A stretch of 64,000 bases of DNA, taken from NCBI RefSeq assembly GCF_032118995.1, contig NC_092661.1, positions 16,959,506 to 17,023,505 on the forward strand, in the 5' to 3' direction. Below are positions 29,342 through 51,932 of this stretch, one piece after another (positions within the stretch are counted from its first letter, which is position 1; every line of letters starts with the position of its first letter). The notes below the pieces were generated by a model. That model was not told where the DNA came from and did no database searches. It was given only the letters and a program-made list of their open reading frames with translations. This DNA is from Asterias amurensis. Its lineage: Eukaryota; Echinodermata; Asteroidea; Forcipulatida; Asteriidae. Made by a program: the position numbers and the translations under genes.

Positions 29342-29714
29342 AGTCATTGTGCAAGATTCAGCGAAAGGCAAGACAAACTCCAACCTCATGCGTCATGCAA
29401 TTTAAACAGACAACCATTTTTTGGGGAACTCACTGCACTCAAAATGTATAGTTCGCAGAAATATCTAAAGATGTGCATCTAAATTGAATGCCGATTTCGC
29501 ACGGCGAAAAAAGACCGACTGTAAAGTTTAATACTGATCAATGCAATACCTGTAAGACCGAATACATCAAAATGTCACGTTGTTAGCTTCAGTTGTAGGA
29601 TTAAGGACTTGCATTAAAGTGGTTTCAATATTAGTTTATTTTTTATTTTATGTTCTACTTTTTTGTGCAAGGGCTACAACAATGCAGCTACAGTATTGCT
29701 TTTTTTTTATGCAG

Positions 29715-30060
29715 CCATGGCATTGAAAACGACTGGTCGCTTCCAAATAAACAACATGTTTTTATCAGAATTGTATGCCATGAAAGTGCACTGTGAACGA
29801 CTATTGTTTACCACAAGAGAAATCCCAAACTTGAGAAAAGTATAGTAAAAGGTATAATCAATTATTCACATCTCACACTCATGATGAAAACAAAAGCAGT
29901 GTGTGACTTCCAACGTCCAAATAGACAACATGTGTTTATCAAAATTGTATGACATGAAAGTGCACTGTGAAAGACTATTGTTTACCAAAAGAGAAATCTT
30001 AAATTTGAGGATAGTACATTAAAAGGTATAATCAATTCACATTACACGTATGATGAAAAC
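29715..30060. repeat. Two-copy tandem duplication in block A
   Basis: A unit of roughly 180 bp containing GAAAGTGCACTGTGAA and GACTATTGTTTACCA occurs twice here but once in block B (about 40110-40290), so its copy number changed after the segmental duplication. Confidence 0.7.
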
Positions 30061-31123
30061 AAGAGCGTGACTTTTGGGTCTTCAAGTCGATGCGAACGGT
30101 GAAAGGTTGTGTTCTCAACAAACAACGGCACACGGAAGAGTGTCAAAATCCGTTTTGAGATGCACTCATTTTCAAGTAGATATAGCGTCCTCAAGACAGT
30201 GGGGGGAAAGTGTAATCCTCAAACCTCACGTTCAAACGGTGTACATTATCCCTTCCGTTTGAACAATGGGAGCAAAATATGAAATGTGCCGTTATTGGAC
30301 ATTAAAAAAAACCGAATGGATCTTGACATTCCAAAGAGGAACAATAAGTTTATTTGCAGTCAAAAGGTCAAATTCAATGCAGTTTTTGACTTAGCATCGA
30401 AATACGAGAATAATTTTCTTTTTTTTATTACTTTACGTTGAAAAGTAAGAGCGAAATATGAAATGTCACATCATTGGACATAATAAAAACAAATGGGTCT
30501 TTACATTCCAATGGTCGAATTCAATGCGGGAAAAAAACCTAAACCAAACTACGATGCAAGTTAAAAAACTGCCCGCACAAAGCAGGCTGACCAATATATA
30601 CTGTTGTTGTTGTGTTTTTTTATGCAAGTTCGCCCCAAACAAGGCTAAAAGTCACTCTTGGTATGGGGATACAAGTCTTTTCAAACTTAAAAGTTAAAAT
30701 AACTCACGCTAAAAGAGTCTGTTAGGTGGAACTAGGTCAGACACACTAGTGGCACATTTACCATGAAAATATCTGTACAAAAATACAGAGGCCGGCTAAA
30801 GACGTACCTTTACGTCATTGGACTCTTTTAGATTGACAAAAAAAATCGCACTGGAAGAGTAGTACACCTTTTCACCGTTTCAACGTGAGGATAGAGACTT
30901 GTTATTTTTCCCACTCTTTCATAAAAAGGAATCTGATTGAAAATGAGTGCATCAAAAAGGTGATTTTTTACCTTGTAACCCTTCTTGAAATTGGATTTTG
31001 TTTTGCTTGCCGCTTCGCTCTGCTGTCATTGTACTTAACTCATAAGTTAACATTTGAATTTTTTTTTAAATAATATATAAATGCGCTCACGGTCTCAAAA
31101 GTCACTTCAAGAATTCCAAGCTA

Positions 31124-32341
31124 CTACTGTTCCATCGGCACGGCGCCACGTCGACACAATTTCCTCAAGACATCCCGAATGTCTTTGCGAAATCGTCTGT
31201 TCACCAAGCCGTAAATGAGCGGATTCACTGCGTTGTTGAGAAACAAGAGATTGAGCAGATTATACACAACATCCACTATTTCATCATGCGGCCTGCCTGA
31301 CAGCGCGAAGCTAACATAGATCCAATAGGGGATGTATGTTACTAAGAATATTAGAGTAACAGAGAAGAGCATCCGCGTTGTCTTGCGTTGAAGGTCGGTG
31401 CTGGACGGGCCGGCTGGCTTGCGTGGCCTCATCACCTCGAGTGACTCCTGGCGTGGACCTGGGGTACGGGAGAGCAATGGCTGGCCCGATACAACTGCGA
31501 TTGCGTCTTGGTTGTGATGAACTGAAACTGTTCGTGCAATGCTCGAAGCGGTATCAGGTGCCTGGTCAGTGGCCGTACAAGCCACCTCTTGCATCTCGTT
31601 TCCATCAGCTGTAGTAGACGGAAGTCCCGTCGGAACCGCCCCAGTCGGTGTCCAGCCGAGGCTATCGCTTCCACCCGACTGCTCGACTCGTTTACGGGCG
31701 AAGCCAACCCGTACGTGGCGTCGAATCATAGCGTACACCTCACCATAACAAATCATAACCACAACAACGTCCAGAGAGTAGAAGACGACCTGCTTAGAGA
31801 GTACTACATTGAAAATTCCAGTATTGCCAAGAGCATACAGAAATGCTGGGATGTTTGTGATAGGCGTCAAGCAAAGGACGAGTACGACTGCAGCGCGAGA
31901 CCGCTTATGAGTGAGCAGTCTTTTATTGTGTCGACAGACGCAGTCGTAGCGATCAAACGCTATCAAAGCAGCCAGACCATTGACCACTGTCAGTAAGAGA
32001 TTGTTGGCGAGGGTTATGGCAAAGTAGGCTGTATAGGACGGGTGCGTACCGTCCAACTGTTGTGCAACCAAGACGGCATCGGGTATGCGCACCAGGCAAG
32101 ACACGAGATCGGTGACGGCCAGTGCCATGATGAGGACAGCCGTGCTGGTCCGGCGTGGCTTGGTCCAGAAGACCGCAATGATGAGAACATTACCCGGAAC
32201 TCCGATCGCGATGATGAGTAGGAACAGAAACAGGACGACTATAGATCGCGGTTGAACGAGTACATGTTCCTCCATGTGGGTCACAACATCGATGGACACA
32301 TTGGTGATGATACTGCTTTCAGTCATGGTGAAATTTGACAT
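31124..32341 (-). CDS. Class A (rhodopsin-like) GPCR, copy 1
   Basis: An intronless coding region of 405 aa from the first in-frame ATG; an upstream GTG also lies in frame but is not a credible eukaryotic start. It is a plasma-membrane seven-helix receptor. GN motif in TM1 (50-51), Asp78 in TM2, DRY at 130-132 ending TM3, TM4 about 149-171, TM5 about 184-205, a long third intracellular loop (about 206-320), TM6 with YIPYW (336-340) in place of the usual CWxP, and NPLIY (373-377) in TM7. Sequons at N3 and N14 fit an extracellular N-terminus. The cysteine normally at the top of TM3 is absent (Tyr106), and the second extracellular loop has no cysteine either, so the usual disulfide is missing. 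The ligand is unknown. The paralogue at 42546-43766 is about 97% identical. A TTTCTTTCGCAAG acceptor-like string just upstream allows a 5' UTR intron. Confidence 0.92.
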   Translation of the reverse strand: MSNFTMTESSIITNVSIDVVTHMEEHVLVQPRSIVVLFLFLLIIAIGVPGNVLIIAVFWTKPRRTSTAVLIMALAVTDLVSCLVRIPDAVLVAQQLDGTHPSYTAYFAITLANNLLLTVVNGLAALIAFDRYDCVCRHNKRLLTHKRSRAAVVLVLCLTPITNIPAFLYALGNTGIFNVVLSKQVVFYSLDVVVVMICYGEVYAMIRRHVRVGFARKRVEQSGGSDSLGWTPTGAVPTGLPSTTADGNEMQEVACTATDQAPDTASSIARTVSVHHNQDAIAVVSGQPLLSRTPGPRQESLEVMRPRKPAGPSSTDLQRKTTRMLFSVTLIFLVTYIPYWIYVSFALSGRPHDEIVDVVYNLLNLLFLNNAVNPLIYGLVNRRFRKDIRDVLRKLCRRGAVPMEQ

Positions 32342-32416
32342 GTTGGGTGGTGGTGAATACCGAGTATTTAACTGACTGGACTCAACTTGCGAAAGAAAAC
32401 AATACAAAGCAACAAT

Positions 32417-32660
32417 CACGAGGTGAGCTGTTGGGTGTTTTGTGAGTACTGAGTCTCGAACCGATGAGTGACTTGACTCAACTTACTGAGAAAGTAGCGA
32501 TCACGAGGTGAGCTGTTGGGTGTTTTGTGAGTACTGAGTCTCGAACCGATGAGTGACTTGACTCAACTTACTGAGAAAGTAGCGATCACGAGGTGAACTG
32601 TTGGGTGTTTTGTGAGTACTGAGTCTCGAACTGACGACTCGTCTTGACTCAACCCACTGA
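32417..32660. repeat. 85-bp minisatellite, three units, upstream of GPCR copy 1
   Basis: Units start at 32417, 32502 and 32587 (CACGAGGTGAGCTGTTGGGT, then GAGTACTGAGTCTCGAACC). They lie 75-320 bp upstream of the receptor's start codon. The paralogous array at 43842-44172 has four units. Confidence 0.9.
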
Positions 32661-33136
32661 AGGAAACTAGTGTGTTGGTATGTTCTTCAAAGTAGCGATT
32701 GTCATGTGGGTTAAAATGCTCCTCAAGTGATAAGAATAGCTGACACTAAAAGTGCTCCTTAGACGAAAACCTCTCTGCAAGTATAGTCTCGTCACGGTGA
32801 AATAATACGAGGCATTTACAGATGCAGGCGGTTTGAGCAACAGTAAGCCCCAAAGTGATGGGCGTATGTAGTACACGCAATCAACTCTGCCGCCTGTCCG
32901 GTGTAATGTATGTCTGGTTTAATTATGGGTAGACTTGCCGAGTCGCTCTGTTAAATTGAAACACCTTTACTGAGACACGATTGGTTAACAAAAAGGCAAA
33001 GAAACAATACCCATGTCAAATGGTGACGTGTTTAGTAAGCATCTGGACAATTATAGATAGACTTGCCGAGTCGCTCTGTTAAATTGAAGTACCCTTTCTT
33101 GATACACGATTGGGTAAGCGAAGATACAACATATCT

Positions 33137-33363
33137 GGGCCCAATTTCATAGAGCTTTGCTTAAGCAAAAAATTCATTGCTTAGTAAAATCAGATTACCG
33201 GCCAAGACTCCACTCAATTGTTATGCTAAGTAAACAACAGCTAAATACTAGTCATAAGCAATGTATATGGCATGACATTTTGGCCAGTAACATGTGTAAA
33301 ATAAGCGAGCTATTTTCGTGCTTAAGCAAATTTTTTGCTTAAGCAGCTCTATGAAATTGGCCC
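33137..33363. mobile_element. MITE, 'CCCAATTTCATAGAGC' family, block A only
   Basis: Ends GGGCCCAATTTCATAGAGCT and AGCTCTATGAAATTGGCCC. Block B lacks it: there the flanking CATATCTGGGCCC runs straight into the next MITE. The insertion therefore followed the duplication, or was lost from B. Confidence 0.88.
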
Positions 33364-33364
33364 T

Positions 33365-33608
33365 GGGCCCAATTTCATGGCTCTGCTTACCGTAAGCACA
33401 GAATCGGCGCTTACGGAAGCAGGAAATTCTGTGCTTACGGCAAGCGTATTTCACGGGTTAGCGGCAAATTTTGGCCTCTGCGCGTGCGTACTCAACGTTA
33501 CTAGGCATTCTACGCTTACAAGGCTAGCGCAGAAATTCGGCGCCTGCACGTAAGCGCAGGATCGTAAGCGCGGAATTCGGCGGTAAGCAGAGCCATGAAA
33601 TTGGGCCC
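33365..33608. mobile_element. MITE, 'GGGCCCAATTTCATGGCTCT' family
   Basis: Full-length with inverse ends. It is present in both duplicated blocks (partner 44648-44891), so it predates the duplication. Confidence 0.9.
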
Positions 33609-33694
33609 TGATGTACTTGCCGCAAGCGTGTGGGTGACGGAAACGCGTTGTTCAATTCAGTCACGGAGTCATGCCCCACTTCAGAGACGTCAAT

Positions 33695-34112
33695 ATTGGA
33701 TCATGTGACCCAGCAACGAACTTCGGTGAAAATTTACCCTTATATGTTTTCTCCACAATATCAACAATTTTGAGATATAATATTTTTGGCTTGCTTTCAA
33801 GCACCAATCAAAGTTGTCCTACTTCTCTTTTCCTGTGCAAAGTACATGTACATTTGATACATGTCCGTACGTATGTATGTCATGATTTTGCTTGGGGACC
33901 ATAATTATAGCCTTGCTTGATATACATGCGTATGAACAGGTATGTATATGTACATGTACTTTGCATAGGAATAGGAAAGTAGGGCAACTTTGAGTGGAGC
34001 CTGAAGGCAAGTCAAAACTATTGTAATTCTAATTTTTCTATATTGTGGAGAAAACGTATAAGGGTAAATTTTCACCGAAGTTCGTCGCCGGGTCACGTGA
34101 TCCACAAGGTCA
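33695..34112. mobile_element. Block A-specific imperfect palindrome
   Basis: ACTTCGGTGAAAATTTACCC near 33720 is matched by GGGTAAATTTTCACCGAAGT near 34063, and GGATCATGTGACCC by GGGTCACGTGATCC outside that. The inner part carries another inverted pair (ACTTCTCTTTTCCTGTGCAA versus TTGCATAGGAATAGGAAAGT). It is probably a fold-back element about 410 bp long. No similar sequence lies in block B. Confidence 0.7.
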
Positions 34113-34607
34113 AATTCAAGGTAGAGGTCAAAAGGTTATCATACCTATGCATGTTCCTACAAAAAAGAAGAAGACATATTTGGAAAGCTTACACAATTTC
34201 CTTTCCAAAGACACCAATTTCAACCAATTTGACCCAAAGGTTACCGATTTATGGTCGTTTGAATGTCAGAGGTCAGGCGCATTTCGACCGAAATCAACAA
34301 GAAAGAGCATGTCGTAGCGCGAAAACCGTTTATCGGATGGAGCTGAAATTTGAAATTTGAGCTTGTTGAGCCACGATTACCCCATAAACTAAAATTGAGC
34401 AAATTTGAAGAGGGTAGGGTTTAACCCATTGGGTGATTTGACACGGAATGACCCATTAACAATCCTCTACTAGACCCGATCCCCTTCATTATAGTGTAGT
34501 CACCAATGAGGTTGAGTTATACAGGTCATCATTATCCGATGCAGTTTGAAGTCACTTGACATTTCCACACATTAATAACATTCATTGTACACACCCACTT
34601 AAACACA

Positions 34608-34793
34608 GGGCCCAACTTCATAGAGCTGCTTAAGCACAAAAAGCTGCTAAGCACAAAATAATTATGCTTACCGGAATACGGTTACCAGCCAAAACACCAT
34701 GTCACATGTACAGGTTTTGACTGGTATCCTGCTCATTTCTGTTAAGCAGAAAAGTGTTAAGCAATACTTTCTGCTTAAGCAGCTCTGTTATGC
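34608..34793. mobile_element. MITE, 'CCCAACTTCATAGAGCTGC' variant
   Basis: GGGCCCAACTTCATAGAGCT at the left and CTTAAGCAGCTCTGTTATG at the right, with the last bases of the right terminus lost. It is shared with block B (49221-49405), so it is older than the duplication. Confidence 0.75.
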
Positions 34794-35296
34794 ATTTGTA
34801 CACGACGAACCTTGAATGTTAGTTATAGACAAGGTCTGCAGCCAACATAATGTAATATACCTTTATCTAACTGTATTATACATGTACAAAGTCTTCCTAG
34901 CATCACTAAGGAATTACTTTGGGACCAACTCACACAAATTGAATTACACTAAGATTAAAGTGCCTTCCATTGAGGCGAAACTCTTTCATCGGTGATTTGT
35001 TTGGAGGTGGCCGTGGTTTCTATGGGTTGCAGAAAGCTAGCAATCTAATTTAACAACCCACTCGAACGGCATTCAAATTCACATCAGCTTTCTTTTCACA
35101 GACATCTGGGATAATCTACCAAGTTAAAGACCTTCAAAAGTGCATGCATCAAGAAAAATTGAATGAAGGTTTCCACCAAAGACGTGAAATCACTTTCAAA
35201 TGCCTGGATGTGAGATAGGCTGCTGTGTTTCTGACGAAAATGCCAGATAAAACGTATACTTATTCACAGTATCGGTGAGGCGCGTTTAAGTAATTC

Positions 35297-35683
35297 TTAA
35301 AGGCAGTGGACACTATTGGTAATTACTCAAAATAATTATCAGCATAAAACCTCACTTGGCAATGAGTAATGGGGAGAGGTTGATAGTATAAAGCATTGTG
35401 AGAAACGGCTCCATCTGAAGTGCCATAGTTTTCTAGAAATCAGTAATTTTCCACGAATTTGATTTCGAGAACTCAAGTTTAGAACTTGAGGTCTCGAAAT
35501 CAACCATCAGAAAGCACACAAATTCGTGTGACGAAGGTTGTTTTTTCTTTCATTATTATCTCGCAACTTCTACAACCGATTGAGCTCAAATTTTCACAGG
35601 TTTGTTATTTTATGCTTATGTTGAGATACACCAACTGTGAAGGCTAGTATTTGAGAATTACCAATAGTGTCCACAGCCTTTAA
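35297..35683. mobile_element. MITE, 'GGCAGTGGACAC' family, complete in block A
   Basis: Ends TTAAAGGCAGTGGACACTAT and AGTGTCCACAGCCTTTAA. In block B only its left half survives, fused to the right half of the copy that in block A lies at about 36690-36870. Confidence 0.88.
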
Positions 35684-35777
35684 CACATGTACTTTTTTAA
35701 GGCAACCAATGTATTGCACTGCATGGACAAGGAACTATTTTCCACAAGCGAAAGTAGTCCCATGTGATTTCGTGCCC

Positions 35778-36026
35778 AGGCCCAATTTCATAGAGCTGCT
35801 TAGCACAAAAATTTGCTCAGCATGAAATTTCTTCCAGTGGTAAAAAACAGGATTATCAACCAAATTTCCATTTGGTGTATATTGCTTGTTACAGGTATTC
35901 GCTGTTGGATGTTTGCTTATCCTGAAAATCACGTGGAAATTTGGTTGGTAATCCTGTTTTTATCAAGGCAAAAAAAGTCATGCTAAGCAAATTTGTGTGC
36001 TTAGCAGCTCTATGAAATTGGGCCCT
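35778..36026. mobile_element. MITE, 'CCCAATTTCATAGAGCTGC' family
   Basis: Ends GGCCCAATTTCATAGAGCTG and AGCTCTATGAAATTGGGCCC. It lies in the 1.3-kb stretch of block A that is missing from block B. Confidence 0.85.
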
Positions 36027-36204
36027 GGTAGTTTATAAGCAGTACATTTTTTTTTGTAGAACTGCGAAGTCTCCCGAATTCTGAAAAAAACAAACTCTGT
36101 GGCAGAAGAATAAATAGCAAGACACGTTCTTAAGAACATAATCTACACATCGAGTAGATTATGCATAATGGTGTTACCACCGCTAACTAAATATTGATAC
36201 CTCT

Positions 36205-36400
36205 ATGCAAATCCCACGAGCACTTTATTTTATTGTCACAAGAAAATTGTGTGGAAAATTGACATGTGAAATGCAATGTACACGTTTCGTAGTTACTCAT
36301 CCGCATCCCACGAGCACTTTATTTTATTGTCACAAGAAAATTGTGTGGAAAACTGACATGCGAAATGCAATGTACACGTTTCGTAATTACTCATCCGCAT
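36205..36400. repeat. Two-copy tandem duplication, 94 bp unit
   Basis: ATCCCACGAGCACTTTATTT starts at 36211 and again at 36305, with only a few differences between the units. It is absent from block B together with its surroundings. Confidence 0.85.
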
Positions 36401-36689
36401 AACAACTGTGACCCTTGGAATAAGTACGGGCATGAAACGGCAAGTCTGATCATATAGTAGCTCTTTAGTTTTATTGAGATCTGTAAACGGTGAATCTGTT
36501 GGGTGAAGACACGCAAAGACGTCAGTTAAGGTCTTCGGCCCAAAACAGAATGCTCTTGAACCGGAAAGCAGCCCGCAGAGGGCGCTAGCCATGCAAGTAA
36601 AGCAAATGATTACGTAACATAAAAATAAACGTGGGGGGGGTCGCATCGTACCCGTGACACAACTTTTGTAACGAGCAACCGGAGATCGA

Positions 36690-36870
36690 GCTGGTGTAAC
36701 ACATTGTGAGGAGAAACGGCTCCCTCTGAAGTAACGGTAGTTTTTTTGGAGCAAGAGGTAATTTCTTACAAAAATATTAAAAGACCTCAGCTCGAGCTTT
36801 TTATTTCTATCTGAAAGCACACAAATTTGTACATTTTCTTGCAACTTCGATGACCAATTAAGCCTAAACT
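36690..36870. mobile_element. MITE fragment, 'GGCAGTGGACAC' family, block A
   Basis: It contains the family's ACATTGTGAGGAGAAACGGC block and CAACTTCGATGACCAATTAA block, but both termini are missing. Its right part is what follows the breakpoint of the hybrid copy in block B. Confidence 0.7.
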
Positions 36871-36889
36871 TTCACACTTTTAAGACGAA

Positions 36890-37340
36890 ACCGTATTCGT
36901 AAAAATATAAAAAAAAAATTCACCTCTAATAGTCTGCTTGTGTATAGAGCGCCCTCTACGTGGTGGATCACAAAATCGTGAAATAAAAGAACGTCTTGCA
37001 CCAAGACTTTTCCTATTCGTAAAAAAAAAAATTCACCTCTAATAGTCTGCTTGTGTATAGAGCGCCCTCTACGTGGTGGATCACAAAATCGTGAAATAAA
37101 ATAACGTCTTGCACCAACACTGTTTTCCTATTCGTAAAAAAAAAAAATTCACCTCTAATAGTCTGCTTGTGTATAGAGCGCCCTCTACGTGGTGGATCAC
37201 AAAATCGTGAAATAAAAGAACGTCTTGCACCAACACTGTTTTCCTATTCGTAAAAAAAAAAAAATCACCTCTAATAGTCTGCTTGTGTATAGAGCGCCCT
37301 CTACGTGGTGGATCACAAAATCGTGAAATAAAAGAACGTC
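36890..37340. repeat. 115-bp tandem repeat, four units in block A
   Basis: Each unit has CACCTCTAATAGTCTGCTTG (starts 36921, 37034, 37150, 37266), GAGCGCCCTCTACGTGGTGG and an A-run of variable length. Block B has a single unit (about 50200-50310). Confidence 0.93.
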
Positions 37341-37642
37341 TTGCACCAAGACTGTTTTCCTACTGCCTCTATAACACCTTGCACTGTTTTAGCAAATAAC
37401 ACGAGTACAAAGTTTAGCATTCTGATTGTCATAAGCGATATGAATATATTTTTTCTAAATATTCTACATGTTGATACTATCTATAAAACTTTCTTCTTCA
37501 TTAATAATAAAAACTGTCGATAAAAAACTTCCCATCATACTCTAAAAAATATTGGCCAACTTTGCCTGATGTGCATCACTGAAAAGCATTTTCTAGAAGT
37601 ATATACAAATAAAAGAAACTGCACAAACAATCAGCTTTCTCC

Positions 37643-37750
37643 AAAAGACGATCAGAGCATACTGATCGAAACGTAGAAAGAACCGGGTTCTTTTCAGAAC
37701 CACCCCAACTCATTTAGAGATAGTCACTACATTGTGTTACCGCTAACCCT
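37643..37750 (+). repeat. Hairpin plus CGAAACGT module
   Basis: CGATCAG and CTGATCG pair around a 6-bp loop and are followed by AAACGT, then GAACCGGGTTCTTTTCAGAA. The same module is at 50597-50700 in block B and, diverged, at about 10500-10600. Related text lies near 54020-54120. It may be part of a Penelope-like or LINE 3' end. Confidence 0.5.
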
Positions 37751-38904
37751 TCCATATCGTATTTCTACCATGCAAAGTTTCAAATCCTACAAACAATTTA
37801 GGTGTACGATCTGCCAGACTCATGGCTGTTTTTTTAAGTTCGTGGTTGTTGTTAGAATAATTATGTTCTTATGATGGCCCTTTATCAAGGGACGTATCAA
37901 AATGCTCAGTATTTTGTCATGCAAGGTATGTGGAGCTACCTTTTCAAGTATTAGCTATTCCTTTTTATAACACCCCTTACAAATATGCTGCCTGTTCATT
38001 GGTTTAGAGCGCGTCACATGATATGTCTTATTTTTACTAGACGGCGGCCGTGTGATAATGCATCGTTTGCCGTGTGACAGTCCGACCACTATCACACGGC
38101 GTGCAGTACCCAGACGTCTTTTTACCCACCTCGAACCCAATCAGTTGTGCATGTGTGTATCTGAAACGCGCGTACGAACGTTACGTGTACTCCCACTGTG
38201 ATCCCCTCGGGAAAATAGAACGGTCCGGGGTTCGAACCTCGGGAGTCGTAGTTTTAACCATAGCAATCGAAGCCGTCAATGTTTGTATAAAAGCACCGTG
38301 TGATAGTTTACAAGGTGCTTTAGCGCAATATGCTACCAATCAAACCAGGAATACCGGGGCAAACTACTTCTCTTTTCGATAAGTGTTGCAGTGCACTGGA
38401 TTATTTTACGTGCGTTACACAACACACGGGACCAACCAACGGACGAAGCATTGTTAAGTGTCTTGCTTTGGAGGACACACGGGGGTCACAATTGGACTCT
38501 TAAGCCCTTGAACACAGTCTCTGCTGATCAGGAACACCAGAGCTCGAGTCCTGTGCGGCCACGACATGCCACAACGCCCGTCGTTTTGCGATCGTCACCC
38601 TTTGTGATAGTTCCGTCTTTATTTTGTTCTAGAGTCAACCAACTTTAAATCACTTTTGTTTCTACATAGCCTACCTACAATGCCAGTGAATGCTATAGTT
38701 GAAGTTACTTTCAGGCAAATTGTCAAGTGGACAATGTGCGCCGGGCAGATTGCGAGTCACGCACGCAGCGTCCCAGGAAGGGAGTTTATGGCCAGCACTA
38801 TATAATCGTCTCATTCAGTGCAACTTATTTCACCCGTCATAATATTATAGGTCAAAACGTTCGCTTATAGGTACCGTCGGTATTTAGTTAAGAATAAATG
38901 CATG

Positions 38905-39785
38905 ACTCGATTATCTCACCGCGACAGACCATTAACGACTTGTCCACAAGTCTAGGTAGGTCTATGAATAAAAAAGACACAACAAGGGTAAATGATAGAA
39001 GTCAACCAGAGACGACATCAGATGCTGCTTTACATAAATAAACAACAGTTCGAGTGCTCAAAAGTTTTCGTCGAAAAAAATATTCATGTCTTTACTATTA
39101 TGTAAGTATACACGGTCTTATCGTCAAATTTTATATAATATCTTAAAAGCCTGATTTTTATTTATTTTTTAAATAAAATATACAAAGAACATTTCTAACA
39201 GACTAAACGGCTCACTATCATCAAGGGCGGATTGAGGGGGGCCTTGGACGGTCAATCAACGCTCTGCCTTCCGACGCGACTCACGTTATTGGCACCTTGA
39301 CGGCACAAATTCCGGTCGGTTTGACGTTGAAATTGCCTCTTTAGACCAGTATCCTGGTCAAGACCCACAATGTTTTACAGTGATGTAAAACACACAATGA
39401 AGCACTGACCCAACTTGTGCTTGTAATTTTTGCCAAAATACACGGTAAATTTAAACGTCGCGTTGCCATTTCACACGAATATGAAAATCCTCGAAACATG
39501 GCCCAATTTCATAAAGCCTGTAAGCGTAAAAGAATTGCTTAAATGAAATTTCTTTCTTGATAAAAACAGGATTACCAACAAAATTTCCTTTTGTTACACA
39601 TTGCTTGTTACTGGTATTCAGCTGTTGCTTGCTTGTCCTAAAAATCACGTAGAAATTTGGTTTGTAATCCTGTTTTTATCAAGGAAGACATTTCGTTCTT
39701 AGCAAATGTTTGTGCTTACAGGCTTCATGAAATTGGGCCCAGGTATTCGACAATTTCAATTAATGTTTAAGGAAAATGAACATTT
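38905..39785. other. Spacer between the two duplicated blocks
   Basis: There is no gene. It begins with an orphan terminus of the AGACTTGTGGACAAGTCG MITE (38920-38953) only 16 bp past the edge of block A, and contains a 'GGCCCAATTTCAT' MITE variant at 39499-39741 whose ends read GGCCCAATTTCATAAAGCC and GGCTTCATGAAATTGGGCCC. The rest is AT-rich. Confidence 0.7.
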
Positions 39786-41656: not shown

Positions 41657-41963
41657 ATTTCAGGCAGTGGACACTATTGGTAATTACATTGTGAGAAACG
41701 GCTCCCTCTGAAGTAACGTAGTTTTCGAAGAAGTAATTTTACACGAATTTGATTTCAAGACCTCAGATTTAGATTTTGAGGTCTCGAAATCAAGCATCTG
41801 AAAGCACACAACTTCGTGTGACAAGGGTGTTTTTTTCTTCCATTATTTTTTTTATATCGCAACTTCGACGACCAATTGAGCTCAAATGTTCACAGGCTTG
41901 TTATTTTATGCATATGTTGAGATACACCAAGTGAGACAATTATCAAAGGTGTCCAGTGTCTTT
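41657..41963. mobile_element. MITE, 'GGCAGTGGACAC' family, block B only
   Basis: CAGGCAGTGGACACTATTGG to GGTGTCCAGTGTCTTTAA. The empty site in block A is at about 30921-30926. The left terminus lacks the usual AAA, so the copy is slightly truncated or the target is uncertain. Confidence 0.85.
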
Positions 41964-42073
41964 AAGGAATCTGATTGGAAAATGAGTGCATCAAAAAGGT
42001 GAACTTTTACCTTGTAACCCTTCTTAAAATTGGATTTTGTTTTGCTTGCCGCTTCGCTCTGCTGTCGTTGTAC

Positions 42074-42464
42074 TTAAAGGAACACGTTGCCTTGGATCGG
42101 TCGAGTTGGTCTTTGAAAAGCGTTTGTAACCGTTTTTTATAAAATGCATATGGGTAGAAAGATGTTGTAAAAGTAGAATACAATGATCCACACAAACATG
42201 CCTCGAAATTGCGTTGTTTTCCTTTTACCTTGTCGACTAACACGTCGGCCATTTATGGGGGTCAAAATTTTGACTCACATAAATGGCCGACCATGTTAGT
42301 TCGCACAGTAGAAGGAAAACCACGCAATTTCGAGGCAAACTTGTGTGGATCATTGTATTCTACTTTTAAAACATCTTTCCAACCATATGCATTTTATAAA
42401 AAAACGGTTACAAACGCTTTTGTTTTGACCAACTCGTCCGATCCAAGGCAACGTGTTCCTTTAA
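42074..42464. mobile_element. Palindromic TTAA MITE with empty site in block A
   Basis: Left TTAA 42074-42077, element 42078-42460, right TTAA 42461-42464. At the matching place in block A (31035-31038) a single TTAA joins the same flanks, GTAC on the left and CTCATAAGTTAAC on the right. This shows insertion with TTAA duplication, the mark of piggyBac-type transposition. It ends 82 bp from the GPCR copy 2 stop codon. Confidence 0.96.
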
Positions 42465-42545
42465 CTCATAAGTTAACATTTGAAATATTTTAAAAATATA
42501 AATGCGCTCATGGGCTCAAAAGTTACTTCAAGAGTTTCCATGCCA

Positions 42546-43766
42546 CTACTGTTCCATCGGCACGGCGCCACGTCGACACAATTTCCTCAAGACATCCCGA
42601 ATGTCTTTGCGAAATCGTCTGTTCGCCAAGCCGTAAATGAGCGGATTAACTGCGTTGTTGAGAAACAAGAGATTGAACAAATTGTACACAACATCCACTG
42701 TTTCATCATGCGGCCTGCCTGACAGCGCGAAGCTAACATAGATCCAATAGGGGATGTATGTTACTAAGAATATTAGAGTAACAGAGAAGAGCATCCGCGT
42801 TGTCTTGCGTTGAAGGTCGGTGCTGGACGGGCCGGCTGGCTTGCGTGGCCTCATCACCTCGAGTGACTCCTGGCGTGGACCTGGGGTACGGGAGAGCGAT
42901 GGCTGGCCCGATACAACTGCGATTGCGTCTTGGTTGTGATGAACTGAAACTGTTCGTGCAATGCTCGAAGCGGTATCAGGTGCCTGGTCAGTGGCCGTAC
43001 AAGCCACCTCTTGCATCTCGTTTCCATCAGCTGTAGTAGACGGAAGTCCCGTCGGAACCGCCCCAGTCGGTCTCCAGCCGAGGCTATCGCTTACACCCGA
43101 CTGCTCGACTCGTTTACGGGCGAAGCCAACCCGTACGTGGCGTCGAATCATAGCATACACCTTACCATAACAAATCATAACCACAACAACGTCCAGAGAG
43201 TAGAAGACGACCTGTTTAGAGAGTACTACATTGAAAATTCCAGTATTGCCAAGAGCATACAGAAATGCTGGGATGTTTGTGATAGGCGTCAAGCAAAGGA
43301 CGAGTACGACTGCAACGCGAGACCGCTTGTGAGTGAGCAGTCTTTTATTGTGTCGACAGACGCAGTCGTAGCGATCAAACGCTATCAAAGCAGCCAGACC
43401 ATCGGCCACTGTCAGTAAGAGATTGTTGGCGAGGATTATGGCCGTTAAGTAGGCTGTATAGGACGGGTGCGTACCGTCCAACTGCTGTGCAACCAAGACG
43501 GCATCGGGTATGCGCACCAGGCAAGACACGAGATCGGTGACGGCCAGTGCCATGATGAGGACAGCCGTGCTGGTCCGGCGTGGCTTGGTCCAGAAGACCG
43601 CAATGATGAGAACATTACCCGGAACTCCGATCGCGATGATGAGTAGGAACAGGAACAGGACGACTATAGATCGCGGTTGAACGAGTACATGTTCCTCCAT
43701 GTGGGTCACAACATCGATGGACACATTGGTGATGATACTGCTTTCAGTCATGGTGAAATTTGACAT
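42546..43766 (-). CDS. Class A (rhodopsin-like) GPCR, copy 2
   Basis: An intronless paralogue of 31124-32341, 406 aa from the first in-frame ATG. All landmark motifs are kept: GN in TM1, DRY at the end of TM3, a long third loop, YIPYW in TM6 and NPLIY in TM7. It differs at about 13 positions. At the start of TM3 the text AYFAIT reads AYLTAII, a one-codon insertion. Others are scattered, for example Glu to Lys just after TM5 (GKVYAM) and Thr to Arg in the third loop. The frame is open throughout, so both copies look functional. As in copy 1 the TM3/ECL2 disulfide cysteines are absent. Its 3' side has gained a TTAA MITE, and its 5' side has four minisatellite units instead of three, so regulation could have diverged. 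Confidence 0.92.
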   Translation of the reverse strand: MSNFTMTESSIITNVSIDVVTHMEEHVLVQPRSIVVLFLFLLIIAIGVPGNVLIIAVFWTKPRRTSTAVLIMALAVTDLVSCLVRIPDAVLVAQQLDGTHPSYTAYLTAIILANNLLLTVADGLAALIAFDRYDCVCRHNKRLLTHKRSRVAVVLVLCLTPITNIPAFLYALGNTGIFNVVLSKQVVFYSLDVVVVMICYGKVYAMIRRHVRVGFARKRVEQSGVSDSLGWRPTGAVPTGLPSTTADGNEMQEVACTATDQAPDTASSIARTVSVHHNQDAIAVVSGQPSLSRTPGPRQESLEVMRPRKPAGPSSTDLQRKTTRMLFSVTLIFLVTYIPYWIYVSFALSGRPHDETVDVVYNLFNLLFLNNAVNPLIYGLANRRFRKDIRDVLRKLCRRGAVPMEQ

Positions 43767-43841
43767 GTTGGGTGGTGGTGAATACCGAGTATTTAACTGA
43801 CTGGACTCAACTTGCGAAAGAAAACAATACAAAGCAACAAT

Positions 43842-44172
43842 CACGAGGTGAGTTGTTGGGTGTTTTGTGAGTACTGAGTCTCGAACCGATGAGTGACTTG
43901 ACTCAACTTACTGAGAAAGTAGCGATCACGAGGTGAACTGTTGGGTGTTTTGTGAGTACTGAGTCTCGAACCGATGAGTGACTTGACTCAACTTACTGAG
44001 AAAGTAGCGATCACGAGGTGAGCTGTTGGGTGTTTTGGGAGTACTGAGTCTCGAACCGATGAGTGACTTGACTCAACTTACTGAGAAAGTAGCGATCACG
44101 AGGTGAACTGTTGGGTGTTTTGTGAGTACTGAGTCTCGAACTGACGACTCGTCTTGACTCAACCCACTGAAG
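43842..44172. repeat. 85-bp minisatellite, four units, upstream of GPCR copy 2
   Basis: Units start at 43842, 43927, 44012 and 44097, with the same unit as 32417-32660. It lies immediately 5' of the receptor coding region. Confidence 0.9.
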
Positions 44173-44647
44173 GAAACTAGTGTGTTGGTATGTTCTTCAA
44201 AGTAGCGATTGTCATGTGGGTTAAAATGCTCCTCAAGTGATAAGAATAGCTGACACTAAAAGTGCTCCTTAGACGAAAACCTCTCTGCAAGTATAGTCTC
44301 GTCACGGTGAAATAATACGAGGCATTTACAGATGCAGGCGGTTTGAGCAACAGCAAGCCCCAAAGTGATGGGCGTATGTAGTACACGCAATCAACTCTGC
44401 CGCCTGTCCGGTGTAATGTATGTCTGGTTCAGTTATGGGTAGACTTGCCGAGTCGCTCTGTTAAATTGAAACACCTTTTACTGAGACACGATTGGTTAAC
44501 AAAAAGGCAAAAAAACAATACCCATGTCAAATGGTGACGTGTTTAGTAAGCATCTGGACAATTATAGATAGACTTGCCGAGTCGCTCTGTTAAATTGAAG
44601 TACCCTTTCTTGATACACGATTGGGTAAGCGAAGATACAACATATCT

Positions 44648-44891
44648 GGGCCCAATTTCATGGCTCTGCTTACCGTAAGCACAGAATCGGCGCTTACGGA
44701 AGCAGGGAATTCTGTGCTTATGGCAAGCGTATTTCACGGGTTAGCGGCAAATTTTGGCTTCTGCGCGTGCGTACTCAACGTTACTAGGCATTCTACGCTT
44801 ACAAGGCTAGCGCAGAAATTCGGCGCTTGCACGTAAGCGCGTGATCGTAAGCGCGGAATTCGGCGGTAAGCAGAGCCATGAAATTGGGCCC
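44648..44891. mobile_element. MITE, 'GGGCCCAATTTCATGGCTCT' family
   Basis: Orthologous in position to 33365-33608, and therefore older than the duplication. Confidence 0.9.
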
Positions 44892-44892
44892 A

Positions 44893-45042
44893 GGGGCCGA
44901 TTTCACAAAGGTCTCAAATTGATCGTAACTTCAAATCAATCGTAGTTGCTAAGTAAAGTGTGATGTCACAATGCAAATCTCTATGGTGATACTAAAAATT
45001 TGTCTTGCGATGAACTTTTATTGCTTTGTGAAATCGGCCCCT
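44893..45042. mobile_element. MITE, GGGGCCGATTTCACAAAG family, block B only
   Basis: The inverse ends GGGGCCGATTTCACAAAG and CTTTGTGAAATCGGCCCC enclose 150 bp. It was inserted directly at the edge of the previous MITE; in block A that edge is followed at once by TGATGTACTTGCCG. Confidence 0.88.
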
Positions 45043-45398
45043 GATGTACTTGCCGAAAGCGTGTCGGTGACGGAAACGCGTTGTTCAATTCAGTCACGGA
45101 GTCATGCCACACTTCAGAGACGTCAATGTTAATCAATGAAGGTATACCGTCACTGTAGTAGGCCTAAACTCAGGGAATAAAGGTTATGTTTGCCTCTTCG
45201 ATGAGAGAGAGAGATAGGGAGATGGGGTGAACAACACAAGCGGGAACTTCGTTTTACGGGTTTACAAGTAGCGGGTGGATTTTTATTTAATCAGCAAACC
45301 CGAGATTCGTTTGGAAGTACAGGCTCTCTTTGTTTATTCTCTGCGTTCACTGTACAGTAATTCTATAGCCTACGTGATTTATTGACTTGGTGTCCTCT

Positions 45399-46202
45399 TT
45401 TAAAGACACTGGACACCTTTTGGTAAATGTCAAAGACCAGTCTTTTCACGTGGTGTATCTAAACATTGCACAAAATCACAAACATGTGAAATTTTGAGCT
45501 CAATTAGTCGTCGAAGGTGCGAGATAATAATGGAAGAAAAAAAACAACCTTGTCACTTGAAGTTGTGTGCTTTCAGATGCTTGATTACGGGACCTCAAAA
45601 TTAAATTATGAATTTTCGAAATGAAATTCAAATATTTTTGTGGAAAATTACTTCATAAAAAAAATTTACAGAGAAAGCCGTTTCTCACATATAATTTTAT
45701 ACTATCAACAGTTCTCCATTGCTTGAATTACTAAGTGAGTTTTTATGCTAACAATTATTTTGAGTATTTTTAAGTAAGTTTTTATGCTAACAATTATTTT
45801 GAGTAATTACCTATATAGAGTTCAGTGCCTTTAAAGCCATTATACACTTTCGGTACAGAAAAAAATAAAGTTCACAGATTTACACATAATTTACAGGGTT
45901 TACAGAAGGTAATGGTGAAAGACTTCTCTTGAAATATTGTTCCATGAAATGCTTTACTTTTTGAGAAAACATTAAAACAATATAAATTCTCATTAGCGAG
46001 AATTACGGATTTATTTTAAACACATGTCATGGCACGGCGAAACGCGCGAAAACAGGAGTGGGTTTTCCCGTTATTTTCTCCCGATCCCGATGACCGATTG
46101 AGCCTAAATTTTCACAGGTTTGTTATTTTATGTAGAAGTTGTGATACACGAAGTGTGGGCCTTGGACAATAGTGTTTACCGAAAGTGTATGATGGCTTTA
46201 AC
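45399..46202. mobile_element. Composite of two adjacent MITEs, second locus
   Basis: The left member (45399-45836) belongs to the 'GACACTGGACACC' family and the right member (45831-46202) to the 'AGCCATTxxACAC' family. They have the same order, orientation and shared junction (GCCTTTAAAGCCATT) as at 12345-13116. Confidence 0.8.
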
Positions 46203-47382
46203 AATGGTATACATGTATAATGTATCGACAGCTCTCCCGTGCTCTTTACCAAATGTAGGGGCCTATAACTTATACGTTTTTATCTCCATTTACTTGTAAT
46301 AGAAGGCCCTACTATTAAACCAAAACACAGCTCGCTTATTATGTATAAATGTAATGTCGCCTCTATCTGTTCGGCATAGTTAACCGCGGACCTCCACAAA
46401 AAATGTCATGCATGGCTCGACTATGTTAAATCAAAATTAAAAATCAACAATAATTTCACCAAACATTGCTTCGAGAAAACGTCTTCCAAATAGATTAAAA
46501 TAAAACCATTGGAACTTCGTTGATTAATTCATTTCAACCTTGAAGAGTTGTTCAATTTTGTGTTGGCGCGTTCCAATCTCTTTCTCCACTGATTGAACTT
46601 AAATTCAAAAGGACGGAAGTTCGCTATATTATTTTGCAAAATAATCAATCATAAAAAATTGTAACAAAAAGTAATCAACCATCTATTTTTTTAAAAGAAA
46701 TCTTATGTGCACAAACAGCTAGCATTCGATCCGTACATTAAGCCATACATTGAGATGGTTGCTGCATGCATGACGACGTCGTTTCCCAACACGTGTATAA
46801 ATGATTCTGTATGTTAAGAATACGACCCACGACTTAGCCTAAACACCCGACGTCAAACTTCGAGGCTCGTGAGTAACTTGCGAATAAAGACAGGGGCCCA
46901 GTCTACCCACTACTGAAATAAAAATGGTATACACCAGGGCCCATCTTTCTAGAGCTGCTTGGAGGTACTGGACACGTGTGGTTGTCAAAGACCAGTATTC
47001 TCACTTGGTGTATCACAACAGAGAATAGTGAAAGAAAAAAACACCGTTGTTAAATTACTTTGTGTGCTTTCAGATGCATAAAAAAAGGCTTCAGGCCTGA
47101 AGTATTTTACTATTTGAGTGAGAAATTACCTCTTTCTAAACTACGTTACTTCAGAGGGAACCATTTCTCTCTATGTTGAATACCATCAACAGCTTCACAA
47201 CACACTCTAATGGGACATTCAAAAACAATTGTCAACGAATTGCTTAACAAAACATGTACTCGTTTTGGGGGGAGAAATTACAGTGGTGGGGGCGATAAAT
47301 AAATCGTCCATGAGCAGGAATTATTGCGCCAGGAAGTGGAACGCTGAAGGTTGCTCTGGTTTACGAGTGCACGTGGCACGGC

Positions 47383-48226
47383 ACAATTTCATAGAGCCGC
47401 TTAAGCATAGAATTTTGCTTAAGCAAAAAAAAAGAAAAACTTGCTCAGTAAAATCAGACTACCGGCCAATACTCCGCCCAATTATTATGTTTTAAAAGTA
47501 ACAACAGCTAAATACCAGTCAAAAACAATGTATATGGCATGGAATTATGGCCCGTAACATGTGTAAAAATAGGCAAGCTATTTTCGTGCTTAAAGTCACC
47601 TGGAAGTGGTATTTTTTCAAAATAAAGCTTTTGTCACTAATATATGTGTTTGATGAGTGGAATGTGAATAAACAGTAAACTAAGGTTTTAAAAAATCAGT
47701 TCTTATGTTATTTACAAATTTAAGAGTAGACCCCGACCCGAGAGGGCGCTGTTCGTGACGTCAATCGAGGCAGACTTTGCCTGTAATGCGTAGAGTAAAC
47801 ACAATTGCAAAGTTCATGAGTACACGGACCAAGTACAAAGTACACGGACCAAGTCGTGAGTTTAAACGTTTCAAATTTCTTTTTTTTCCGGCAATGCCGA
47901 CCAGGTGTATTGCTGCTAAAATGCAGAAAAAACACTTTTTGAAATGTACCAACTCACGACTTGGACGTACATGTACTTTGCACGTGTGTTTACTATACGC
48001 ATTGCAAGCAAAGTCTGCCTCGAATGACGTCACAAAAGGGGTAGGCGGAGTCAGCCCCCAAACAACTTTATTCATTTTTTAAACATATAAATCGTGACAA
48101 ACAATTACTAAAAACAATTGATTTACTGTTCGTAAGCATATACTCTTATGTTTGAAAGAAAAACAAATTCTATTTCCAGGTGACTTTAAGCAAGTTGTTT
48201 GTTGGCTTAAGCAGCTTTATTGGCCC
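47383..48226. mobile_element. MITE 'CCCAATTTCATAGAGC', interrupted
   Basis: The left part is 47383-47593 and the right part 48186-48226, separated by a younger insertion. Joined at TTAA, the halves restore the family's CGTGCTTAAGCAA text, which is intact at 33319-33331. Confidence 0.88.
47590..48189. mobile_element. TTAA element nested in a MITE (AGTCACCTGGAA family)
   Basis: TTAA at 47590-47593 and 48186-48189 bounds a 592-bp element with ends AGTCACCTGGAA and TTCCAGGTGACT. The interior is palindromic (GAGGCAGACTTTGC / GCAAAGTCTGCCTC; AAGTCGTGAGTT / AACTCACGACTT). It has no coding capacity. It is a second TTAA-targeting, non-autonomous family, distinct in its termini from the AGGAACACG family. 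Confidence 0.93.
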
Positions 48227-49916
48227 ATGGTCAACTAAACACCTTTTGGGCATTTTTCTGTGTAATTAGGGTCCAAAATGAACTAAGGCAAATAGTGTGG
48301 GTCCATTTTGGTATATTTGACACGAAATTGAAAGCTCTTCGTCATTTAATTTCAATGAATGTCTAAGCAATTTTCTTTCTTCATTTGTCATACGATTTAA
48401 CCTGTGACAAGACGGGGAGAAAAGTGGTATGCACTTTACGTTACTGCCGATAGAACAAGAACCGCTGTACGTAACACAATTATCAATCCTCTACTAGACC
48501 CGATCCCCTTCATTATAGTGTAGTCACCAATGAGGTTGAGTTATACAGGTCATCATTATCCGATGCAGTTTGAAGTCACTTGACATTTCCACACATTAAT
48601 AACATTCATTGTACACACCCACTTAACCCTTTAGTCCCTGCACCGCCAGAGTTTGCTGCAATACCAATTTCTCAAGATTCTTGCAGTAAATTACTGGAAT
48701 CGTAGTTCGCATTTTAAAAGATAGCCATGGCTTATTATGTATGCACAATTTTTTACCCTTTCGGTAATATTTGTATAAAAGTACAAGTTCTCATGGAAAC
48801 AATAAATGCCTCTCGTTAAACGGCTACGGTAATTTTTATGGCGAATATTTTTGTGCACGGATGAAATGGACACAATAGCTTTTCAAGGCTTTTATCTGGC
48901 TCAATGCTCATACTGATTAAATGCGAAGGCGTTAACTTTCGACAATATCATCATAAATGATGAACAATTTCATGTTTACTAATGAGCGGTTTTTTCGTAA
49001 GAGCTAAATTATTTCATCATCATTAGCTTCGACAAGTCAACTGTGAAGGGAGAATTAATAACGATATATAACAACTAAATATATTAACAAATGCGTAGAC
49101 CTACTAATGACTATCGAGTTTTATTTTGATGTTCCGTTTTTTCTACAGACACAAGCTAGCGAGGTTTCCTCGTACCGCATAGAGGCGGCTGGGCGGTACA
49201 GTGGCTAAATGGTTAAAAACAGGGCCCAAAGTTATAGAGTTGCTTAAGCACAAAAAGCTGCTAAGCACCAAATAATTATGCTTACCTGAATACGGTTACC
49301 AGCCCAAAAAAGTGTCACATGTACGTTTTTGACTGGTATCCTGCTCATTTCTGTTAAGCAGAAAAGTGTTAAGCAATACTTTCTGCTTAAGCAGCTCTGT
49401 TATGCATTTGTACACGACGAACCTTGAATGTTAGTTATAGACAAGGTCTGCAGCCAACATAATGTAATATACCTTTATCTAACTGTATTATACATGTACA
49501 AAGTCTTCCTAGCATCACTAAGGAATTACTTTGGGACCACTTCACACAAGTGGAATCTCACACAATTACCCTATGATTAAAAGTGCCTTCCAATGAGGCG
49601 AAACATCGGTGACTTGTTTGGGGTGGCCTTTGTTCCTATGGGGTTTCAAACAGCTAGCCATCTAATTTAACAACCCACTCGATCGGCATTCAAATTCACA
49701 TCAGCTTTCTTTTCACAGACATCTGGGACATTAATCTACCAAGTTAAAGACCTTCAAAAGTGCATGCATCAAGAAAAATTGAATGAAGGTTTCAACCAAA
49801 GACATGAAATCACTTTCAAATGCCTGGATGTGAGATAGGCTGCTGTGTTTCTGACGAAAATGCCAGGTAAAACGTATACTTATTCACAGTATCGGTTAGG
49901 CGCGTTTAAGTAATTC

Positions 49917-50175
49917 TTAAAGGCAGTGGACACTATTGGTAATTACTCAAAATAATTATTGGCATAAAACCTTTCTTGAGAAGAGTAATGGGGAGAGGTT
50001 GATGGTATAAAACATTGTGAGAAACAGCTCCCTCTGAAGTGACGTAGTTTTCTAGAAATCAGTAATTTTCCACGAATTTGATTTCGAGACCTCAGCTCGA
50101 GCTTTTTATTTCTATCTGAAAGCACACAAATTTGTACATTTTCTTGCAACTTCGATGACCAATTAAGCCTTAACT
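49917..50175. mobile_element. Hybrid MITE in block B (deletion joint)
   Basis: The left part matches the block A copy at 35297 onward, including the TTTTCTAGAAATCAGTAATT stretch. After GACCTCAG it continues as the block A fragment near 36785 (CTCGAGCTTTTTATTTC). The 1.3 kb that lies between those two points in block A is missing. Confidence 0.88.
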
Positions 50176-50199
50176 TTCACATTTTAAGACGAAACCGTA

Positions 50200-50310
50200 T
50201 TCGTAAAAAAAAAATAATCACCTCTAATAGTCTGCTTGTGTATAGAGCGCCCTCTACGTGGTGGATCACAAAATCGTGAAATAAAAGAACGTCTTGCACC
50301 AAGACTGTTT
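50200..50310. repeat. Single unit of the 115-bp repeat, block B
   Basis: It contains CACCTCTAATAGTCTGCTTG once, whereas block A has four tandem units. Confidence 0.93.
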
Positions 50311-51573
50311 TCCTACTGCCTCTATAACACCTTGCACTGTTTTAGCAAATAACACGAGTACAAAGTTAAGCATTCTGATTGTCATAAGCGATATGAATAT
50401 ATTTTTTCTAAATATTCTACATGTTGATACTATCTATAAAACTTTCTTCTTCATTAATAATAAAAACTGTCGATAAAAAACTTCCCATCATACTTTAAAA
50501 AATATTGGCCAACTTTGCCTGATGTTCATCACTTAAAAGCATTTTCTAGAAGTATATACAAATAAAAGAAACTGCACAAACAATCAGCTTTCTCCAGAAG
50601 ACGATCAGAGCATACTGATCGAAACGTAGAAAGAACCGGGTTCTTTTCAGAATTACCCCAACTCATTTAGAGATAGTCACTACACTGTGTTACCGCTAAC
50701 CTTTCCATATCGTATTTCTACCATGCAAAGTTTCGAATCTTACAAACAATTTAGGTGTACGATCTGCCAGACTCATTGCTGTTTTTTAAAGTTCGTGGTT
50801 GTTGTTTTTAATAGAATAATATGTTCTTATGATGGCCCTTTATCAAATCCCTATGGGACGTATATCACAACGCTCGGTATTTTGTCATGCAAGGTATGTG
50901 GAGCTACCTTTCAAGTATTAGCCATTCCTTTTTATAACACCCCTTACAAATATTCTGCCTGTTCATTGGTTTAGAGCGCGTCACATGATATGTCTTATTT
51001 TTACTAGACGGCGGCCGTGTGATAGTGCATCGTTTGCCGTGTGACAGTCCGACCACTATCACACGGCGTGCAGTACCCAGACGTCTTTTTACCCATCTCG
51101 AACCCAATCAGTTGTGCATGTGTGAATCTGAAACGCGCGTACGAACGTTACGTGTACTCCCACTGTGATCCCCTCGGGAAAATAGAACGGTCCGGGGATC
51201 GAACCTCGGGAGTCGTAGTTTTAACCATAGCAATCGAAGCAGTCAATGTTTGTATAAAAGCACCGTGTGATAGTTTACAAGGTGCTTTGGCGCAATATGT
51301 TACCAATCAAACCAGGAATACCGGGGCGAACCCCTTCTCTTTAGTCGTTAAGTGATGCAGTGCACTGGATTATTTTACGTGCGTTACACAACACACGGGA
51401 CCAACTGAACCAACGGACGAAGCATGGTTAAGTGTCTTGCTTTGGAGGTCACACAGGGTTCACACTATTGGACACTCAGCTGATCAGGAACACCAGAACA
51501 CCAGCTGATGCGGCCACGACATGCCACAACGCCCGTCGTTTTGCGACCATCACCCTCTGTGAAAGTCCCCGTC

Positions 51574-51579
51574 TTTATT
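51574..51579 (-). terminator. Candidate poly(A) signal for SLC51A
   Basis: The nearest convincing minus-strand AATAAA past the SLC51A stop codon, about 355 bp downstream. It lies inside block B, and the same hexamer exists in block A, where no gene precedes it. No direct evidence of use. Confidence 0.35.
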
Positions 51580-51932
51580 TTGTTTTAGAGTCAACCAACT
51601 TTAAATCACTTTTGTTTCTACATAGCCTACCTACAATGCCAGTGAATGCTATAGTTGAAGTTACTTTCAGGCAAATTGTCAAGTGGAAAATGTGCGCCGG
51701 GCAGACTGCGAGTCACGCACGCAGCGTCCCAGGAAGGGAGTTTATGGCCAGCACTATAATTATAATCGTCTCATTCAGTGCAACTTATTTCACCCGTCAT
51801 AATATTATAGGTCAAAACGTTCGCTTCTAGGTACCGTCGGTATTTAGTTAAGAATAAATGCATGCCATGTGCGCTGGACAGATCGTCTGCCACTACGTTA
51901 TACGCCATGGTAAACTGTTTCAAGCTAGATAC

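Follow-up and report, generated by a model that had tools for sequence, protein, structure and literature searches.

We analysed a 64,000-nucleotide stretch of the genome of the starfish Asterias amurensis (positions 16959506-17023505 of contig C14, NC_092661.1, in an assembly of 491,506,623 bp and 23 contigs), referred to below as the window, and found that it carries two adjacent blocks of 9.5 and 12.1 kb in direct orientation, each with one gene for a class-A G protein-coupled receptor (GPCR). The observation is confirmed, and the event behind it is very probably real, recent and ordinary in kind, with an unusually legible history. We consider it highly likely that a GPCR-bearing segment was duplicated side by side and that the two copies then changed separately. 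Recent segmental duplications with copy-specific transposon insertions are a known general class. The present pair resembles them in having two adjacent copies, about 95% identity and copy-specific insertions, deletions and array changes, and differs in an extra spacer with a truncated transposon at the junction.

Two diverged copies of one segment

Comparison of the window with itself gave one collinear chain of direct matches running from 29389/39786 to 38904/51864 at 89-99% identity, in which six pieces have E = 0. Among the best 60 of 450 self-matches in the surrounding 200 kb, no other series of collinear direct matches spans more than 2 kb. When 1366 bases from the receptor region were searched against the genome at the DNA level, both copies and one 59-base fragment were found. 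The window thus holds two direct collinear copies on the same chromosome, matching well above chance. The block lengths and the chain agree with the initial annotation, which had also placed a GPCR in both blocks, where we find open frames of 405 and 406 amino acids.

That annotation had proposed aligning the blocks to estimate substitutions. In a segment-by-segment alignment, 210 of 4376 noncoding positions differ (4.8%, the stretch upstream of the receptor being excluded), while there are 20 mismatches in the 1215 positions of the receptor coding sequence (CDS) and 4 in the 477 columns lying upstream of the 85-bp tandem array. The divergence is patchy, with 0-17 mismatches per 100 noncoding columns and a median of 4 per 100, and it falls to 3.5% once windows above 8 mismatches (7 of 43) are set aside. 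Because gap placement and simple sequence inflate the high-mismatch windows, 4.8% is a slight overestimate. Three of these windows (30345-30495, 34893-35048 and 38442-38610) were considered as old sequence and rejected, being largely the product of gap placement and simple sequence.

In the available part of a study of another A. amurensis individual, k-mer heterozygosity is 0.96% and heterozygous single-nucleotide polymorphisms amount to 0.632% (PMC11090083). The divergence between the blocks is 5-8 times this published heterozygosity, or about 4-5 times without the most divergent windows; since 4.8% stands against 0.63-0.96%, the blocks are not ordinary alleles. The initial annotation had named an assembly artefact from two divergent haplotypes as the finding that would overturn the duplication. 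In this rival reading, both haplotypes of one locus were placed end to end. The species is heterozygous and, in the available text of the assembly report, the HiFi reads average 12.5 kb, too short to span both blocks, and the primary assembly was purged of haplotypic duplicates (PMC10625585), a step that can fail. However, alleles placed end to end should show copies of the outer flanks at the inner block edges, and the sequence between the blocks resembles neither flank (apart from the block edges, no match better than E = 0.14). The surrounding 200 kb contain no N, and thus no gap. Given also the excess of divergence over heterozygosity, we regard such an artefact as very unlikely.

Junctions and mechanism

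Instead of a head-to-tail junction free of extra sequence, we found a spacer of 879 bp that is unlike both flanks, and the arrangement is therefore an adjacent duplication, not a simple head-to-tail one. The earlier description of the blocks as tandem holds in that they are adjacent and direct, and fails in that this spacer, found in neither outer flank, separates them. Immediately after block 1 the spacer opens with the right-hand 50 bp of a repetitive miniature inverted-repeat transposable element (MITE). This MITE end has many relatives in the genome (577 candidates, best 40 scored), and in the three that we inspected the left-hand DNA is unrelated to block 1. The adjoining spacer sequence at 38972-39484 had no second match among the best 40 of 577 genome candidates. 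At the other junction, the left flank of block 1 and the end of the spacer differ right up to the shared start of the blocks. Because these two sequences differ and the MITE end is truncated, the breakpoints have no long repeat and no simple head-to-tail join.

These junctions bear on the idea that direct repeats at the two ends recombined to give a simple tandem duplication. MITEs of one family do lie near both outer flanks (28410-28754 and 52462-52817), as that mechanism would have it. Nevertheless, they are only about 75% alike, they stand 0.6 kb outside the block ends, and the spacer does not match them. The junction sequence largely rules out recombination between flanking repeats, and we give it almost no credence; the lack of resemblance between the spacer and either outer flank speaks against it and against joined haplotypes alike. 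We propose instead that, in this starfish's lineage, an end-joining or replication-based rearrangement produced a second, adjacent copy of a stretch of 9 kb or more that carried a single chemoreceptor-like GPCR gene, and that the loss of one of the two left flanks would have followed or accompanied the duplication.

Ages of the elements found in one block

The initial annotation had ordered transposon activity around the event by presence and absence, taking elements in both blocks as older and elements in one block as younger. We used the identity of each element's nearest relative elsewhere in the genome as an age test. Since only 40 candidates, among them the element itself, were scored in each whole-genome search, a closer relative may be missed; identities are rounded, and target-site junctions were read by eye. 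Older MITEs common to both blocks are indeed present at 33364-33606/44647-44889 and 35297-35683/49917-50090. The first of these pairs served as an age control: the copy in the other block is 98% identical, and the remaining scored copies reach at most 95% (best 40 of 3224 candidates). For the first 176 bases of the second, a 387-bp MITE, the nearest sequence besides its partner is 92% identical within the surrounding 200 kb.

At least four clean insertions had been claimed, and the junctions of five elements bear this out (42077-42463, 48627-49212, 33139-33362, 44880-45027 and 40309-40830). By the identity test, four one-block elements look younger than the duplication. The nearest relatives of the block-1 element 33139-33362 are 97-98% identical when compared in full and 99-100% over 207 of the 224 bases (best 40 of 1952 candidates); inside the surrounding 200 kb the best reaches 93%. 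Its explanation as a block-2 deletion between 15-bp direct repeats is ruled out by the near-identical copies genome-wide. In block 2, the element 48627-49212, with what are presumably piggyBac-like ends, has a relative at 99% (best 40 of 478 candidates), and 44880-45027 has one at 96% over the full length and 99% over 137 bases (best 40 of 1583 candidates). For 42077-42463, which had no whole-genome search of its own, a relative in the 200 kb is 97.9% identical, and a 392-bp stretch adjoining a receptor on C2 matches at 98.7%. The TTAA duplications at 42077-42463 and 48627-49212 are those of TTAA-target MITEs, which we take here to be piggyBac-like.

Two further elements appear to be near the age of the duplication, and their order relative to it is undecided: the nearest relatives of both 40309-40830 (best 40 of 836 candidates) and a foldback remnant in block 1 (33697-34454; best 40 of 205) are 95% identical. 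This value does not discriminate, because the other scored copies of the shared control MITE also reach 95%. The seventh element, at 41658-41963 in block 2, has no relative above 91% among the best 40 of 5333 candidates (query from 41662) and for this reason probably predates the duplication; most likely it stood in the ancestor and was then lost from block 1. Its target duplication is decayed (TTTC versus TTAA), and block 1 reads AAAA at that place. It belongs to the same family as the shared 387-bp element, a family in which most of the 17 listed near-full-length copies end in TTAA. This family occupies 49 loci and 13.4 kb of the surrounding 200 kb.

Because 41658-41963 looks older than the duplication, an element's restriction to one block does not prove that it was inserted later. 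The claim that one-block elements postdate the event therefore stands for four of seven (relatives at 96-100%), is left undecided for two (95%) and does not hold for one. Together, these results suggest that the order of events around this adjacent duplication is largely readable, provided that each insert is given its own age check.

Deletions and tandem-repeat arrays

A single deletion had been annotated, and we find two large ones, of 1.3 kb from block 2 and of about 3.35 kb from block 1. The breakpoints of the former (35471-36784) fall at roughly corresponding points of two directly oriented MITEs from a single family, and a chimaeric element remains, pointing to probable loss by recombination between the two copies. 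At the other site there is no similarity between 33696-34454 of block 1 and 45129-48478 of block 2. Judged against two other copies, the block-1 sequence at 33697-34454 corresponds to the right-hand two-thirds of a palindromic element that measures about 1125 bp in full. Elements of this foldback type (about 1.13 kb; 205 genome candidates) have the ends GGGTCATTCC and, by eye, 4-bp target duplications. Given that the full element is seen in the other copies and that ATTA is retained at the insertion point in block 2, the most likely order in block 1 is a gain of the foldback element, followed by loss of its left third together with about 3.35 kb of neighbouring DNA.

Under the proposed history, block 1 would thus have gained a young MITE and the foldback element before its loss of about 3.35 kb, while block 2 would have acquired three or more young elements and shed 1.3 kb. 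The three array copy-number changes described earlier were recovered, with 3 versus 4 units of 85 bp, 4 versus 1 of 116 bp and 2 versus 1 of 174 bp in blocks 1 and 2, respectively. The block-1 units of the 174-bp repeat are 86% alike and so predate the duplication, for which reason block 2 probably lost one.

The receptor pair and its low-divergence core

Both receptors score well above the 30.5-bit cut-off of the Pfam 7tm_1 model (68.9 and 65.6 bits, taken on stop-to-stop frames) and carry DRY and NPLIY motifs, the latter of the NPxxY type, as expected of class-A rhodopsin-like GPCRs. Judging from their single open frames, both genes appear to be without introns. Most class-A receptors have a conserved disulphide cysteine at the start of transmembrane segment 3 (TM3); by eye, it is absent from both receptors and from ten aligned paralogues. 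A protein search of the genome gave 54 matches at E up to 1e-10, including both copies (best 93 of 447 candidates scored). The relatives cluster on C2, at 2.60-2.73 Mb (6 matches), 15.40-15.65 Mb (9) and 24.78-24.80 Mb (4), and the ten best-ranking matches after the pair are 33-39% identical among those scored. The pair itself comprises two genes only and lies apart from the C2 clusters. Within one of these, two loci of the same family (C2:2660492 and C2:2698965) are 99.4% identical over 4089 bp, 38.5 kb apart and on the same strand, and either arose by an even more recent duplication or were duplicated in the assembly.

In the available part of a study of Acanthaster planci, such receptors of starfish and sea urchins are presented as putative olfactory receptors; many of the A. 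planci receptors (ApORs) lie in tandem genomic clusters, defined as at least four genes, and some are unclustered (PMC5442662). The family found here shares with the ApORs and the sea-urchin surreal-GPCRs its class-A rhodopsin-like type and is clustered on C2, whereas the present pair lies apart from the clusters. A role in chemical sensing is probable for the receptor gene.

Between the copies, 12 of 908 nonsynonymous and 8 of 307 synonymous sites differ (dN and dS), and positive selection on the receptor is unsupported by these counts. The differing positions were compared with the ten paralogues, using alignment columns (the paralogue count runs one lower past a gap). At columns 111, 151, 202 and 381 the paralogues side with block 2 as carrying the older state (all 10 have Ala at column 381, and 7 of the 10 have Lys at column 202), at columns 107, 121 and 356 they side with block 1, and the other differing columns are not decisive. 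The two differing columns that the paralogues conserve most are both ones where copy 1 deviates; still, a tally of four columns for and three against does not clearly mark either copy as the freer one.

A core at 32061-33423, covering the receptor N-terminus and the upstream region, has only 5 mismatches in 891 aligned columns (the array and the block-1-only MITE left out). Such similarity was reached in 0.4% of 2000 trials in which the gaps between mismatches were shuffled and in none of 1000 plain shuffles. The unusual similarity may come from gene conversion or from constraint. Purifying selection on the promoter and receptor, without conversion, agrees with the span of the core over the upstream region and N-terminus and with the climb in divergence downstream of the gene's 3' end. 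Two counts point the same way: taken over all synonymous sites, divergence (8/307) does not fall significantly short of the noncoding level (p = 0.09), and two-fold sites, counted with Ile, show 6 differences among 155, at odds with a recent conversion of the entire coding sequence. In contrast, four-fold sites differ at 1 of 224 compared with 210 of 4376 noncoding positions (p = 0.0004), and the core extends into a MITE (33364-33423), where constraint is unexpected. We put constraint by itself at slightly short of an even chance. A bolder joint reading would see a lone chemoreceptor turning into two, with conversion maintaining the likeness of the N-terminus and upstream region as the transmembrane regions and flanks drift apart, receptor changes clustering at the start of TM3 and copy 1 deviating at two residues conserved in the family. 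It would also have old MITEs vanish from one copy with hardly a trace, which would make dating by presence or absence fail at a measurable rate, here for one of seven inserts. We hold this joint reading to be doubtful.

Weighing the proposed history

Several points weigh against a recent side-by-side duplication with separate later change. The heterozygosity yardstick comes from another individual, and the junctions are unlike those of a simple tandem duplication, since the 879-bp spacer and the two different left flanks need a second event. The amino-acid polarity singles out neither copy, leaving no clear overall asymmetry. The old-looking element in one block could mean that the blocks descend from long-diverged haplotypes. 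This last point leads to unequal exchange between haplotypes that already differed, by which much of the divergence would be older than the duplication, the insert differences would be standing polymorphisms and the duplication would be younger than the divergence suggests. Both the element at 41658-41963 and the patchy divergence fit such pre-existing differences. Among the entries listed, a literature search on haplotypes and unequal exchange turned up only works of a general kind. On the other hand, the mean divergence far exceeds allelic diversity, the four one-block inserts are young by themselves, and the spacer and non-homologous edges are unlike homologous exchange. We judge unequal exchange, and with it the younger date, unlikely, and continue to favour the adjacent duplication followed by separate change.

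Neighbouring features

The features discussed are collected in Table 1. Exon-like matches on the minus strand lie on opposite sides of the duplication, to DUF4470 (PF14737) at 10533-10889 and, just over the cut-off, to organic solute transporter alpha (PF03619) at 53559-53894. Near the end of the window, 62576-63600 (C14:17022081-17023105) has a direct copy about 6.6 kb downstream, past the window end (99.4% identity over a 1029-bp match). Elsewhere in the assembly, C23 carries COX1 with in-frame TGA codons and was taken as the mitochondrion. C5 has COX1 stretches at 658874-660214 and 675294-676634, 16,420 bp apart; these loci are 100% identical to each other over 4341 bp and 97.3% identical to the mitochondrial contig, and represent either mitochondrial DNA inserted in tandem in the nuclear genome or an artefact of assembly.

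Table 1. Positions, within the window, of the two blocks and of the features in and between them
Feature	Positions	Strand	Remarks
Block 1, 9.5 kb	29387-38904	+	direct collinear match to block 2
Block 2, 12.1 kb	39784-51864	+	direct collinear match to block 1
GPCR copy 1, class A, 405 aa	31124-32341	-	one open frame; Pfam 7tm_1 E=6e-19
GPCR copy 2, class A, 406 aa	42546-43766	-	one open frame; Pfam 7tm_1 E=6e-18
Low-divergence core over receptor N-terminus and upstream region	32061-33423		1.4 kb
Spacer between blocks, 879 bp	38905-39783		no similarity to left or right flank
Right-end 50 bp of repetitive MITE, cut off at block-1 end	38905-38954	+	rearrangement junction
MITE with long inverted repeat, in spacer	39485-39756
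Shared pre-duplication MITE, age control	33364-33606	+	partner 44647-44889
Shared 387-bp TTAA MITE	35297-35683	+	partner 49917-50090, shortened by block-2 deletion
Block-1-only young-looking MITE	33139-33362	+	CTG target duplication (3-bp CTG/CAG-like site)
Block-1-only foldback remnant, ~760 of 1125 bp	33697-34454	+	left third missing
Block-2-only TTAA-type element	40309-40830	+	TTAA-like site, partly decayed
Block-2-only, old-looking member of 387-bp TTAA MITE family	41658-41963	+
Block-2-only young-looking MITE	42077-42463	+	clean TTAA site; intact empty site in block 1
Block-2-only young-looking MITE	44880-45027	+	CWG-type 3-bp target site (CTG/CAG-like)
Block-2-only young-looking TTAA element	48627-49212	+	clean TTAA site; intact empty site in block 1
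1.3 kb kept in block 1, missing from block 2	35471-36784	+
3.35 kb kept in block 2, most likely deleted from block 1 with left third of foldback element	45129-48473	+
85-bp array upstream of GPCR 1, 3 units	32415-32670
85-bp array upstream of GPCR 2, 4 units	43840-44180
116-bp array, block 1, 4 units	36909-37361
116-bp unit, block 2, 1 copy	50198-50314
174-bp repeat, block 1, 2 units	29742-30066
174-bp repeat, block 2, 1 unit	40134-40301

Implications

These findings leave knowledge of duplication in general unchanged. The pair provides a check on a common shortcut, in which transposon families are dated by whether they occur in one or in both of two paralogous blocks; four inserts pass this check, two leave it undecided and one fails. 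Young gene pairs with alignable flanks, such as this one, help the study of how receptor families grow.

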